From a virus, in the IMG/VR virus record IMGVR_UViG_3300044684_000273, positions 1-44,252 of that record: DNA of 44,252 nt; one strand, written 5' to 3'. Made by a program: the position numbers and the translations under genes. Every line of letters begins with the position of its first letter. Within the stretch, counting starts at the first letter, position 1. Shown piece after piece: positions 9,223 to 43,446 of the stretch. Below the pieces are notes generated by a model. The model did not search any database, was not told the DNA's origin, and was given only the letters and a program-made list of their open reading frames with translations.

Positions 9223-9815
9223 GTTGGCTCCTTGGCGCCCCCGATGCGCTTGACGTCGTCCATGGTGTGGGCGAGCTGGACCGGGGCGCACGCGGCGCGG
9301 AGCCAATCCAGAAAGCGCAGGAAGAGATACATTCCAGCGCCCGCCGGCGTTAGCTGGACAACCGCGCGCTGGCCTGTCTGCCAAATGCCAAGCTTGCGCC
9401 AGCTCCGTGCGTACTCTTCAGCCGTCTGCACCCGCTGAGCTTGTTCGTCGGCCCTTTTGAATTCTTGGAATCCCGCCCCAAATGACATTGGGTCGGGCGC
9501 CGGCGGATCAAACTCCACCTTGATGTGGTGCGTCGCGCCGGCGTCCCTCTGCGCTTGCTTCCATCGCTCCAGGGCCGGGCATCCACCGAAGTGGTTGTCC
9601 GTCTCGTGCCCGGCGAAGATCTGCGTCATTGGCGAGTAGCCGCAGTCTGGGCACCGGTTCGGATTCGCCGCCACCCACTCGACGGCCAGGCGCAGTGGGC
9701 AATCGTCTGTGCACCGCGAATGGCGCTTGCAGACGAGGCAGATGGAACGGCCGCCGTCATCCGCGAACAGCCCCGGCTGCGCCACCAGCGCCCGCACGAT
9801 GTCTTCGGCGGTCAT
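9219..9815 (-). CDS. Zinc-binding hypothetical protein
   Basis: A 198-residue protein. ATG 9815 is preferred over a longer frame because it overlaps the upstream stop at 9812-9814. The N-terminal half carries CLVCKRHSRCTDDC and CPDCGYS with GHETDNHFGGC, enough for two zinc sites. The C-terminal half is helical and aromatic (MYLFLRFLDWLRAACAP). No catalytic motif is seen. Together with the cysteine-rich genes above it, it suggests the operon encodes nucleic-acid or protein-binding accessories rather than structural proteins. Confidence 0.6.
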   Translation of the reverse strand: MTAEDIVRALVAQPGLFADDGGRSICLVCKRHSRCTDDCPLRLAVEWVAANPNRCPDCGYSPMTQIFAGHETDNHFGGCPALERWKQAQRDAGATHHIKVEFDPPAPDPMSFGAGFQEFKRADEQAQRVQTAEEYARSWRKLGIWQTGQRAVVQLTPAGAGMYLFLRFLDWLRAACAPVQLAHTMDDVKRIGGAKEPT

Positions 9816-10120
9816 GGGCTGAGCTCCACGCCGGCGGCGGCCCAACACAGAGGACACGGCATCGTCTCGGGGTCCTCGTCGGCATGCAGGATCGCCACGT
9901 AGCGCGGATGCACCGGGCAGATACAGCGTACTACTCTGAAGTCAACGACGCGGGCGCGCATCGGCGCAGTCAGGCGGTCTGCAAAGTCCTGCCAGGCGTC
10001 CAGGGCGCCCTCATTGAAGTATACCCGCATGCTGGACGTCGATGGATCGGCCTCGAAGACTTTGCGCGCTTCCAGGCGGGTTTTGTGGCGTTGCTCAACG
10101 GTCAGATCCAGGTGGCTCAT
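9812..10120 (-). CDS. Small zinc-ribbon-like protein
   Basis: A 102-residue product; ATG 10120 overlaps the upstream stop at 10117-10119, better than an in-frame ATG three codons earlier. The N-terminus is a charged helix (LTVEQRHKTRLEARKVFEAD); the C-terminus has CICPVH and CPLCW motifs that pair as a CxCxxH / CxxC zinc site. It could be a DNA- or RNA-binding adaptor. No family is recognised. Confidence 0.55.
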   Translation of the reverse strand: MSHLDLTVEQRHKTRLEARKVFEADPSTSSMRVYFNEGALDAWQDFADRLTAPMRARVVDFRVVRCICPVHPRYVAILHADEDPETMPCPLCWAAAGVELSP

Positions 10121-36778: not shown

Positions 36779-38104
36779 CTAGTTCTCCGGCATGGGGACG
36801 AGGGTGAGGTTCGGGCGGCCCATCGGCGCTGGCTCCGGCGCCGGGGCGGCGTCCTGCCAGAACTTCGGCGCCAAGCCGGCGGTAAAGATCGCGTGTACGA
36901 GGCAGCAGAGGTTATGAAGGAGGCACTTGGCCAGGACCTCGTTCATCTGCGCCGTGGGGGTCTTGGAACGCACCGCGCCGCCGAACTTGCTCTTGAGCAT
37001 CATCATGACGGTCTCGACGTTGCTGCGGCGGTGGTAGTGCTTCAGAAACCGCTCATTGTCGAACAGGAACGAGCCAAGCAGCCGGGACCACACCTCGCAC
37101 TTCGGGTCGATCGTCGCATTCACCTTGAACGGGATGAACGCCTCGACGCCAAAGTTCTCTAGAACCCGGTGGTTGTCCTTGCTGCCGTACGCCTTGTCTC
37201 CGCTCATCTCGTGCACGTCGAAGTTCTTCATGGTTTGGGTCAGCAGCGCCGGCAGTTGCGGGCAATCGGCCTCCGGCGACACCTTCACGCCCGTGATCGC
37301 ATGGGTGACGGTGCCGACGGCGACATGCAGCTTGACCCACGGGTGCCGCGCATGCAGCTTGCCGTGCTTCTGATCGAACCAGCGATCGTAGGTCACCGTC
37401 GAAAAACCGGTGCTGTCTATCGCGAACTGGCCGTTTTCAAGCGCCGCGAGCGGCTTGGCTGACTCTTCGATCAGGGACACGAGCAGCGCCGTTGACGACT
37501 CGTCGCCCAGGAAGTTGGAGATCGTGTTGAAGTGCGCGACGTGCTCCAGGTGGCCCTTTTCGGCGCTGTCGGTAAGGTCGGACTGCGCCCGGCGCTGGGA
37601 CTTCATGCTGTAAACCTTGGCGACCGCGGCGAAGGTCGCGTCCTTGAGCGGGATCGGCTTGCGACCGGGGCCGGGCTTGCGCACCGGCTCCTCGATGCCA
37701 TCGCAGAGGGAGCGCAGCAGCCGCTCGACGTAGATCCCCTCGCTCGTCTGCGCCTCGTTATACGCGGCCCAGTCGCGCTTGAAGGTCTTGCGCTTGACCG
37801 TTACCGTCTCGGTCGTGCTGCCGTCAGCGGCCACTTCAGAACCCCAGGCGATCCAGGTGTAGACGGCGTGAACGTGCTTGCACTGCTGCCGACGAACCTC
37901 ATAGTCAGGGCAGGTGCACGTTTCCTCGACGAGATCGACGACGTAGGCGCTAGCACCGCCAGACTGCGACGGGACCGCGTACCGCGAGCCGATCTGCTTG
38001 ATGCCGCCCTTTTGAGCGATCTGCCGGCCGCGCTCCTCGCGGGTGGACAGAACCGGGCGGCTTTCAGCGACGAGGTTTTCGGCCGTGTTCGTAAACATGT
38101 ACAT
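36779..38104 (-). CDS. IS4-type DDE transposase with SWIM-like zinc finger
   Basis: A 441-residue transposase. The N-terminal SWIM-type zinc motif CTCPDYEVRRQQCKHVHAV (CxCx9CxH) lies near residues 63-81 and should bind DNA or the element ends. The catalytic core carries FAIDSTGFS (first Asp), DKAYGSKDN (second Asp) and YHRRSNVETVMMMLK, which matches the IS4 signature Y-(2)-R-(3)-E-(6)-K with the catalytic Glu. It would cut at the terminal repeats and join the element to target DNA. ATG 38104 or the in-frame ATG two codons later could be used. No truncation seen. Confidence 0.9.
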   Translation of the reverse strand: MYMFTNTAENLVAESRPVLSTREERGRQIAQKGGIKQIGSRYAVPSQSGGASAYVVDLVEETCTCPDYEVRRQQCKHVHAVYTWIAWGSEVAADGSTTETVTVKRKTFKRDWAAYNEAQTSEGIYVERLLRSLCDGIEEPVRKPGPGRKPIPLKDATFAAVAKVYSMKSQRRAQSDLTDSAEKGHLEHVAHFNTISNFLGDESSTALLVSLIEESAKPLAALENGQFAIDSTGFSTVTYDRWFDQKHGKLHARHPWVKLHVAVGTVTHAITGVKVSPEADCPQLPALLTQTMKNFDVHEMSGDKAYGSKDNHRVLENFGVEAFIPFKVNATIDPKCEVWSRLLGSFLFDNERFLKHYHRRSNVETVMMMLKSKFGGAVRSKTPTAQMNEVLAKCLLHNLCCLVHAIFTAGLAPKFWQDAAPAPEPAPMGRPNLTLVPMPEN

Positions 38105-41368: not shown

Positions 41369-41432
41369 TGCACATTTATTCGGCGACCTGCACATTTATT
41401 GGGGTCGCCGAGGGGTATTTATGTGCAAAGCC
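41369..41432 (+). repeat. Right end: subterminal repeats and terminal inverted repeat
   Basis: TGCACATTTATT occurs at 41369-41380 and 41389-41400 in the same orientation as the left copies, while the terminal copy (41417-41432, ATTTATGTGCAAAGCC) is inverted. The inner right copies therefore have opposite orientation to the outer one, an asymmetry that may let transposase distinguish left from right ends. Confidence 0.75.
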
Positions 41433-41441
41433 CCTCCTCGA
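41433..41441. repeat. Right copy of 9-bp target-site duplication
   Basis: CCTCCTCGA, identical to the copy at 35999-36007. In the interrupted gene (minus strand) it encodes part of the FEE segment. Confidence 0.9.
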
Positions 41442-42024
41442 AGTCCTCGAAGCGCTGCTCGCGGGCGAGGTCCACAGTCTCCTTGTCGCTCCCGCTGCTC
41501 AGGCGGTGATGCCATGCCAGGGTTCCGCTGCGGGTTATCGCCAGCCGCCCCAGGCGAACGGTCCAGTACACGCCCGTCGGCGGTCGCGGAAATAGCTCCT
41601 CGTGTTCGCGCGTCCAGCCCTGGTAGCTGAATTCCACGGCCACGCGGGCGATGTCGCCAATGCTCGGATTCTCAAGTGCTTGGTGTGCTTGATCGAACTC
41701 GCTCATGCTCCCTCCGGCCCCGGGGGCGGGCTCAACCATAGCCGCGATCTGCTCAACGTCGGTCATCGAGAGCGGAAGCACGGCGACGCTCGGAGACTGC
41801 CAGCCGTCTTCCATCGGCCACTCTTTGTTGCCCCATCGCACGCCGGCCCCGATGGCCTCATCAGGGGTCAACCCCCACACAAGGGCCGACGCGCAGCGAT
41901 AGTTGATGACGTTGGGCTTCGTCGGGTCATTCCTGTGGGTAAGGATTGAGGCGGTGAACGGGTAGCGCCCATCGGCCCGGAAGTATCCAACGGTCATGGT
42001 CTTGTCGCCGGTCGTCTCGCTCAT
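41433..42024 (-). pseudogene. 5' fragment of the gene interrupted by the transposon
   Basis: The gene starts at ATG 42024 (MSETTGDKTMTVGYFRADG), with AAGGAG upstream on the minus strand, and runs to the insertion site; reading on into the transposon gives only GLCT before TAA 41419-41421. Joined to 35901-35998 it encodes a 229-residue protein. The domain has mixed alpha/beta character with WGLTPDEAIGAGVRWGN and ARVAVEFSYQGWTREHEELF. It is a phage early gene of unknown function that the insertion has probably inactivated. Confidence 0.85.
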
Positions 42025-42072
42025 TCGTTGGCTCCTTGTCCCCGTCGTACCGCATCGCAGCGACGGATGCAA

Positions 42073-42284
42073 TCCCAATTGTCACGTTATTGGCACGGTG
42101 GCGAACTGGTCTAACAGAATATCAGACGGTAAATGCGGGACAGGACGAGATGCCGAAGATCTCGAATGGAGGTCGCATAACCTGTCGAGATCGCTTAACC
42201 GTCGACGGCACAATGGGCGATCACGCCTCCGTTGCGTGCTGTTGAGTCCGCCGCATGTGATCCCATTTGTCACGCTATTGGCAC
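42073..42284. other. attP: Candidate attP site with arm repeats and core palindrome
   Basis: A 24-bp direct repeat occurs at 42073-42096 and 42261-42284 with 22 of 24 bases identical (both end TATTGGCAC); these look like integrase arm-type sites. Between them GATCTCGA (42158-42165) and TCGAGATC (42185-42192) form an 8-bp inverted repeat, and AGGT-CGCATA-ACCT lies inside it, the layout of core-type sites around a crossover. It lies directly after the integrase stop. No tRNA-gene end is recognised. Confidence 0.6.
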
Positions 42285-42286
42285 AC

Positions 42287-43282
42287 TCACAGTTTGCGCA
42301 CCGCCTCGCGCAAGCTGGCGATGTCGAGGTGACCGTACGTCGTATCGACAAGCCGCGACGTCGTGTGACCAAGAAGCTTCGCCACGATCATCGAATCAAC
42401 GCCTTTCTGCTTGAGGCGACTGGCAAACGTCCGACGGAAATCATGCACCGTGCACCGAGCGATCCCGGCACGTTTACACGAGTTCTCCAGGGTGACCGTC
42501 GGCGTCGGCCATCGCTTGACGATCGGCCCCGAATGCCTGGGCTGCTGCTTGAGCCATTCGGCAAAGGGCTCCATCAAGGGGATCGTTCTGTCGCTGGCGT
42601 TCCTCCCTTTGCGCTTGCCCTTGGTGCCGCGAATCCTGATCGTGCCCTCGACCAGGTCGACATCTGACCAGTCCAGGCCGTTGACCTCTTCGCGCCGGGC
42701 GCCTGTCCACACGGCCACGCGAACCCAGTCAGCGCGAGCGGCCGGCAAGCAGGGATACAGCGCATCGAGCTCCGCCTGGGTAAGCCATCTCGTCTTTGGT
42801 TCGATGCTGCCAGGTACTGGGATGGTCAGCAGATCCAGGTCGGGCACCGGGCGGCCGCGCTGCTTGGCCAGCCGCAACGCCGATCGCAACATGCCCAGCT
42901 CAGACGTCATGGTTCTGGGCCCAGCCTTCCGTTCGGCGACGTAGCGCTCGAGGTGAGCACGGCTCAGGTCAGACAGCCGAACACCGCCCAGGATGCGCGC
43001 CAGTCCGATGGCTCGCTGTTCGTATGCGATCCTCGTCGTCGGCGCCCGCTCGACCGGCGCCTCGACGAATGCCAGCAGAGCGTCGGCTACCGTTTCCCGC
43101 CCGTGGACGCGCCCAGGCTCAGCAGAATTTCTCTGCAGCTCGGTCGCCGCTGCGAGAGCGGCCTTTCTGTCGGTGCACTTGGTACTGACGCGGACGCGCT
43201 TGCCGCCCTCGTAGACCCACGTCCACCAGTAAGGCGAGTCGCCACGGCGGTAGATCGGGGCGTCGGTTGAGCGCTTTGGCAT
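42287..43282 (-). CDS. int: Tyrosine site-specific integrase
   Basis: A 331-residue tyrosine recombinase. The N-terminal part is an AP2-like arm-binding domain (YRRGDSPYWWTWVYEGGKR); residues about 55-150 form the SAM-like core-binding domain. The catalytic domain carries the first Arg in TGARREEVNGLDW, HDFRR (HxxR), LLGHTTSRLVDTTYGH for the His and the nucleophilic Tyr. It integrates the phage at the host site through the attP candidate next to its 3' end. ATG 43282; the excisionase frame overlaps its start. Confidence 0.9.
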   Translation of the reverse strand: MPKRSTDAPIYRRGDSPYWWTWVYEGGKRVRVSTKCTDRKAALAAATELQRNSAEPGRVHGRETVADALLAFVEAPVERAPTTRIAYEQRAIGLARILGGVRLSDLSRAHLERYVAERKAGPRTMTSELGMLRSALRLAKQRGRPVPDLDLLTIPVPGSIEPKTRWLTQAELDALYPCLPAARADWVRVAVWTGARREEVNGLDWSDVDLVEGTIRIRGTKGKRKGRNASDRTIPLMEPFAEWLKQQPRHSGPIVKRWPTPTVTLENSCKRAGIARCTVHDFRRTFASRLKQKGVDSMIVAKLLGHTTSRLVDTTYGHLDIASLREAVRKL

Positions 43283-43446
43283 GTCTCCAGGTACCGTATC
43301 AGGGCCGGCTCTGGCAAGCGCAAGGCGCCGCCGCCGGCCCCGACAGCGATGGCCCCGGCCGCACGCATGACCTCATAGGCGGCCGAACGTCCGAGGCTAA
43401 GCGCCTCCATGACGTCGGCGACGGTGAGCATGCGCGGGAGGGTCAT
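43087..43446 (-). CDS. Excisionase-like HTH protein
   Basis: A 119-residue frame from ATG 43446. Residues 6-52 (MLTVADVMEALSLGRSAAYE, then VGAGGGALRLPEPALIRYLE) match the AlpA/excisionase HTH_17 pattern, a small winged helix that bends DNA next to att. The last 60 residues overlap the integrase start in another frame and are arginine/serine-rich; either the overlap is real or the true gene ends earlier. It precedes the integrase on the same strand, as xis usually does. Confidence 0.6.
   Translation of the reverse strand: MTLPRMLTVADVMEALSLGRSAAYEVMRAAGAIAVGAGGGALRLPEPALIRYLETCQSAQPTPRSTAVATRLTGGRGSTRAASASASVPSAPTERPLSQRRPSCREILLSLGASTGGKR

Follow-up and report, generated by a model that had tools for sequence, protein, structure and literature searches.

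A predicted attP with two tandem-repeat arms beside the tyrosine integrase gene of a contractile-tailed phage

The integrase (Int) of phage lambda bridges the arms and the core half-sites of its attachment site and performs strand exchange over a 7-bp overlap (PMC4880445). In a myxobacterium, the temperate phages Mx8 and Mx9 have a single phage int gene and site-specific attB sites, and the attP of Mx8 lies within int (PMC6070905). Here we describe a putative attP in the linear IMG/VR viral record IMGVR_UViG_3300044684_000273, which was analyzed over its entire 44,252 bp and is referred to below as the window. Based on gene content, i.e., terminase, head protease, baseplate and a weak sheath match, the phage is contractile-tailed, and the predicted attP suggests that it is temperate. 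Comparison of the window DNA with named phages gave no match. The sole close relative that we found is G001 (IMGVR_UViG_3300044658_000111; TerL 93% and Int 54–55% against the window). The phage contig also encodes, at 36779–38104 on the minus strand, a DDE transposase with a SWIM zinc finger and a remote likeness to IS5-family transposases.

An initial annotation had proposed an attP adjoining the integrase stop, with a 22/24-identical direct repeat whose copies lie about 165 bases apart, and these measurements were confirmed. The repeat at 42073–42096 and 42261–42284 is 22/24 identical, and identity extends to 23/25 when it is lengthened by one base (42072–42096 and 42260–42284) and to 30/36 over 42061–42096 and 42249–42284. 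The two arms are separated by 163 bp (188 bp start-to-start), and the Int stop codon (42287–42289) lies 3 bp from the end of the right-hand arm, with more stops in the same frame. The window contains exactly two copies of the arm motif, where shuffled sequences predicted none; chance does not come close to explaining the direct repeat. A feature that had gone unremarked is that each arm consists of two 11-bp subsites in tandem, roughly cGTGmCAaww, and all eight subsites (four in the window, four in G001) start with GTG[AC]CA when read in the direction of Int (Table 1). The exact arm motif was not found in viral contigs. Among the hits of looser pattern searches, L093 (two-arm pattern) was a chance match, L128 and L129 (single-arm pattern) were chance matches without an Int, and L095 (two-arm pattern) was a low-GC phage without relation to the window, in which GTGCCAA repeats flank a tRNA-like 3′ end. 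In L095 (about 9765–9956, minus strand) the GTGCCAACTCC repeats flank this 3′ end as three and two copies, and the int gene lies beyond, on the other side. Use of the arm type as a clade marker was rejected on the basis of a tree, in which the four integrases whose arms read GTGxCAx/GTGATAA did not group together as a single clade.

Table 1. Features of the integrase end of the window and of the predicted attP
Feature	Position	Strand	Remarks
Tyrosine integrase, 331 aa	42287..43282	-	Right end of window; Pfam PF00589 1.3e-20; PHROG_1 integrase 2e-59
Excisionase-like HTH_17 ORF	43087..43446	-	Upstream of int; PF12728 27.3 bits vs cut-off 27; PHROG_66 excisionase/regulator 0.0097
Int-proximal arm (predicted)	42263..42284	-	Tandem 11-bp subsites GTGCCAATAGC + GTGACAAATGG; motif also in G001 and L027
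Conserved block GCGGACTCAACAGCACGCAACGGA	42228..42251	-	Near arm to core; about 19/24 identical in G001
Conserved block AAGCGATCTCGAC	42184..42196	-	12/13 identical in G001; includes one arm of the nested palindrome
Nested palindrome GATCTCGA..AGGT-CGCATA-ACCT..TCGAGATC	42158..42192		Present, near chance, not kept in G001
Proposed core CGAGAT-GCCGAAG-ATCTCG	42146..42164		Two inverted 6-bp half-sites; 7-bp overlap 42152–42158
Weak IHF-like site TATCAGACGGTAA	42120..42132	+	Core to distal arm; one mismatch to WATCARNNNNTTR
Int-distal arm (predicted)	42075..42096	-	Tandem 11-bp subsites GTGCCAATAAC + GTGACAATTGG

The integrase carries the complete catalytic set R-K-H-R-H-Y (R196, K221, H280, R283, H306 and Y316, assigned by motif in alignments). 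Its PDB matches were XerA, XerD and HP1 Int, and the whole chain of its AF2 model (pTM 0.55) matched XerA, Tn1549 Int and lambda Int. In the same model the N-terminus is composed of strands at residues 10–12, 19–25 and 28–33 and a helix at 39–52 (pLDDT 76–90 there), and this predicted strand-strand-strand-helix order over residues 10–52 would fit an arm-binding domain. No close relatives of this Int were detected when viral and genome contigs were scanned with the single sequence. The HTH_17 ORF and the 5′ end of int share 196 nt; an identical 196-nt overlap is present in G001, whose counterpart (L006:1811–2188, plus strand) shares 49% identity, and this ORF likely encodes an excisionase. The C-terminal half of the ORF, which falls within the int overlap, is also fairly conserved between the window and G001.

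The comparison with G001 bears directly on the function of the repeats. In G001 the arm motif is present twice after the integrase, with a spacing of 178 bp, and the inter-arm DNA of the two phages aligned with a score of 17.5 against −8.3 ± 4.5 in shuffles (0 of 300 reached 17.5), i.e., these stretches are homologous by sequence. The attP reading holds because the motif recurs in two copies behind the integrase of this related phage, and we consider the region very likely to be an attP with these two arms, in agreement with the original proposal; tandem repeats between Int and a tRNA in some integrated relatives (see below) point the same way. An alternative is that a regulator uses the repeats as operators or iterons and that they are not arm-type integrase sites, a reading to which their position beside the int 3′ end and just upstream of a minus-strand ORF (41419–42078) would lend itself. 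However, G001 and the chromosomal locus L027 both have this tandem motif after their integrases, the L027 copy lies between Int and tRNA-Phe, and the inter-arm DNA is conserved as well in G001; we regard a regulatory role as highly improbable. Two blocks within the inter-arm DNA are kept in G001 (Table 1), and the one at 42228–42251 may be a site for an excisionase or a bending protein. An IHF scan revealed no strong site in the window and no IHF-like site in G001.

Integrated relatives of the integrase were examined in 318 genomes, the class of the MAG G002 (‘uncultured Myxococcales bacterium’, from L014). An integrase at E ≤ 1e-20 was found in 36 of them, with 42% identity at best. Twenty loci were fetched, most of which lie beside tRNA-Phe(GAA); ARAGORN detected this tRNA in six of the longer stretches, and elsewhere it was recognized from its anticodon segment. 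L027 contains GTGACAAATACGTGCCAGAC between Int and tRNA-Phe, a motif that is also present in the far arm of G001, and in the same place L025 and L031 show well-defined tandem repeats whose sequence is related; the repeats were less clear in other fetched loci, and by the scan used some had none. The distance from the near arm to the overlap centre is 128 bp in L025, 140 bp in L027 and 130 bp in L031, with values of 153–162 in loci with less certain arms. In genome G135, an interval is bounded on either side by a 48-bp tRNA-Phe segment that reaches from the 3′ end to the anticodon stem; beyond the shortened tRNA copy lies a further tandem repeat, at 66 bp from the centre of the overlap. By sequence this arrangement looks like hybrid att sites and places the crossover in the anticodon stem-loop, although the near and far repeats differ in sequence and may thus belong to different elements. 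Tandem elements appear to occupy tRNA-Phe in G135 (L044, 9313–9386 and 17409–17482); the second tRNA copy breaks off behind the anticodon stem, and the arm-like repeats on its two sides are different. In many of the tRNA-Phe loci (L025, L027, L028, L029, L031, L033–L037, L041 and L043) the Int frame stays open across the repeats and closes only within the tRNA, read antisense (...GFSVRCSTS or a similar ending); integration there would swap the C-terminus of Int, as for Mx8. tRNA-Phe was rejected as the target of the window phage: neither the window nor G001 has the 3′ half of tRNA-Phe, and the window gives no anticodon-loop match and contains no tRNA.

Between the arms of the window, CGAGAT-GCCGAAG-ATCTCG, overlooked in the initial annotation, is the only perfect 6-bp inverted repeat with a spacer of 6–8, and a 6-7-6 repeat by itself has a shuffle-based P of 0.04 for spacer 7 and 0.09 for spacers of 6–8. 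When the half-site was slid along the inter-arm DNA of G001, the best placement was CTAGAA-TTTACTG-ATCTCG (10/12; next best 8), which lies 59 bp from the far arm, identical to the window. The corresponding distance to the near arm is 129 bp in the window, in line with the 128–140 bp of L025, L027 and L031, and 119 bp in G001, about one helical turn shorter. TTTAC-8-GTAAA had been considered as the core of G001 and was dropped, as CTAGAA-TTTACTG-ATCTCG fits the 59-bp spacing. Between the two cores, 10/12 half-site positions are kept against 2/7 of the 7-bp overlap, as would be expected of the same type of integrase directed at different targets. The two attPs are homologous, so that their agreement in the core is not fully independent of shared ancestry. 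Taken together, spacing and half-site conservation indicate that the core is probably located at 42146–42164. No integrated copy of the window phage was found, and hence no junction confirms the core.

The initial annotation had drawn the core instead at 42160–42192, in a nested palindrome. This palindrome lies near the middle of the inter-arm DNA, and CGCATA would be its overlap. All of its pieces are present between the arms, with GATCTCGA at 42158–42165, AGGT at 42170–42173, CGCATA, ACCT at 42180–42183 and TCGAGATC at 42185–42192. However, when the inter-arm DNA is dinucleotide-shuffled, about 5% of the resulting sequences contain an 8-bp inverted repeat with a spacer of 3–30, and about 1.9 4-bp inverted repeats with a spacer of 6–8 are expected by chance in shuffled inter-arm DNA, which makes the palindrome alone weak. 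Furthermore, the inner and outer repeats are not concentric (the outer is off-centre over the inner by 4 versus 1 nt), neither is kept in G001, and the centre of the palindrome is 107.5 bp from the near arm versus 128–140 bp in L025, L027 and L031, the clear-arm relatives with a known tRNA target. Crossover within 42158–42192 thus appears improbable, and this part of the original proposal is not upheld; the core probably lies about 20 bp away.

Searching the 318 genomes with the inter-arm DNA of the window produced 31 hits, of which 13 stacked at 42142–42165, unlike the inter-arm DNA of G001, for which the same search gave scattered matches only. The best match was greA of G156 (19/19, codons E-MPKIS), and G156 also carries the closest integrase found in this genome set, which is suggestive. 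The 19-bp core is exact in greA of one genome and differs by one mismatch in four others. A sub-case of the attP reading is an attB inside the host greA at these codons, such that integration splits the gene. Against this, the 19-mer is coding-like: at ≤1 mismatch it has 57 matches in 53 genomes, and of the 30 loci read, five were greA and the rest other genes or frames. Since the 19-mer also matches many other genes, the pile-up at 42142–42165 is partly a codon-usage effect. Moreover, no prophage was seen in greA, and the phage would not restore greA after integration. The core 19-mer in viral contigs L096 and L097 fell in unrelated frames and both were rejected, and a literature search on greA as attB returned nothing relevant. 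We retain greA as a candidate attB, albeit an unlikely one. TerL relatives at E ≤ 1e-60 were absent from 310 genomes of the presumed host class, and with no strong TerL relative in the class, host membership there gains no proof.

By analogy with lambda, we propose that Int bridges arms and core. Its N-terminal domain would contact both arms, at two tandem cGTGmCAaww-like sites of 11 bp in each, and the inverted half-sites CGAGAT/ATCTCG would be bound by the core-binding and catalytic domains. Cleavage would occur at the edges of the 7-bp overlap (GCCGAAG), followed by strand exchange with a chromosomal site bearing the same overlap, and the HTH_17 protein would act as the directionality factor. 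What the sequences show directly are the repeats, the integrase, the near-constant spacing with which both are kept in G001, and the tandem arm-like repeats that some integrated relatives have between Int and a tRNA gene; the exact position of the core, the cut positions, the role of the HTH_17 protein, the host and the target gene are inferred. It is conceivable, though we think it rather doubtful, that the attPs of the window and G001 show an integrase lineage caught while switching targets, with arms and half-sites kept and the overlap changed. Its ancestor would have used tRNA-Phe and carried attP within int, and the new site would be protein-coding, for instance the beginning of greA. Int and attP of the window form a pair open to experimental test, in a little-studied group of phages that may belong to myxobacteria and for which few integration tools exist, and the window and G001 form a natural comparison between attP bases held by the integrase and those that follow the target.

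When set beside known systems, the site is a well-formed but ordinary attP. The closest named phage integrases belong to the module of the Pseudomonas phage D3 type (29% identity, 98% coverage), in which an excisionase/HTH gene is annotated beside Int; they are too distant from the window Int to share att sites. The nearest chromosomal integrases, up to 42% identical, are those of the tRNA-Phe elements (L025, L027, L031 and others), which likewise have tandem arms beside Int; their core, however, is the tRNA-Phe anticodon stem-loop. Many of these relatives appear to have attP inside int, a likeness to Mx8, whereas the window attP differs from Mx8 and Mx9 in lying outside int: the int frame does not stay open through the near arm and core but stops just before the arm, and the core contains no tRNA sequence. 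Relative to lambda, the arms of the window consist of two 11-bp subsites each, all in one direction, clear IHF sites are lacking, core and target differ, and Int is only remotely similar. In contrast to these differences, the overall organization resembles that of lambda attP: a tyrosine recombinase gene adjoins the site, repeated predicted arm-type sites flank the core on both sides, the pattern CGAGAT-GCCGAAG-ATCTCG is consistent with inverted half-sites around a 7-bp overlap (within the 6–8 bp range), the total length is about 210–240 bp, an excisionase-like gene is close by, and the window Int may have an arm-binding N-terminal domain, to judge from its predicted fold.
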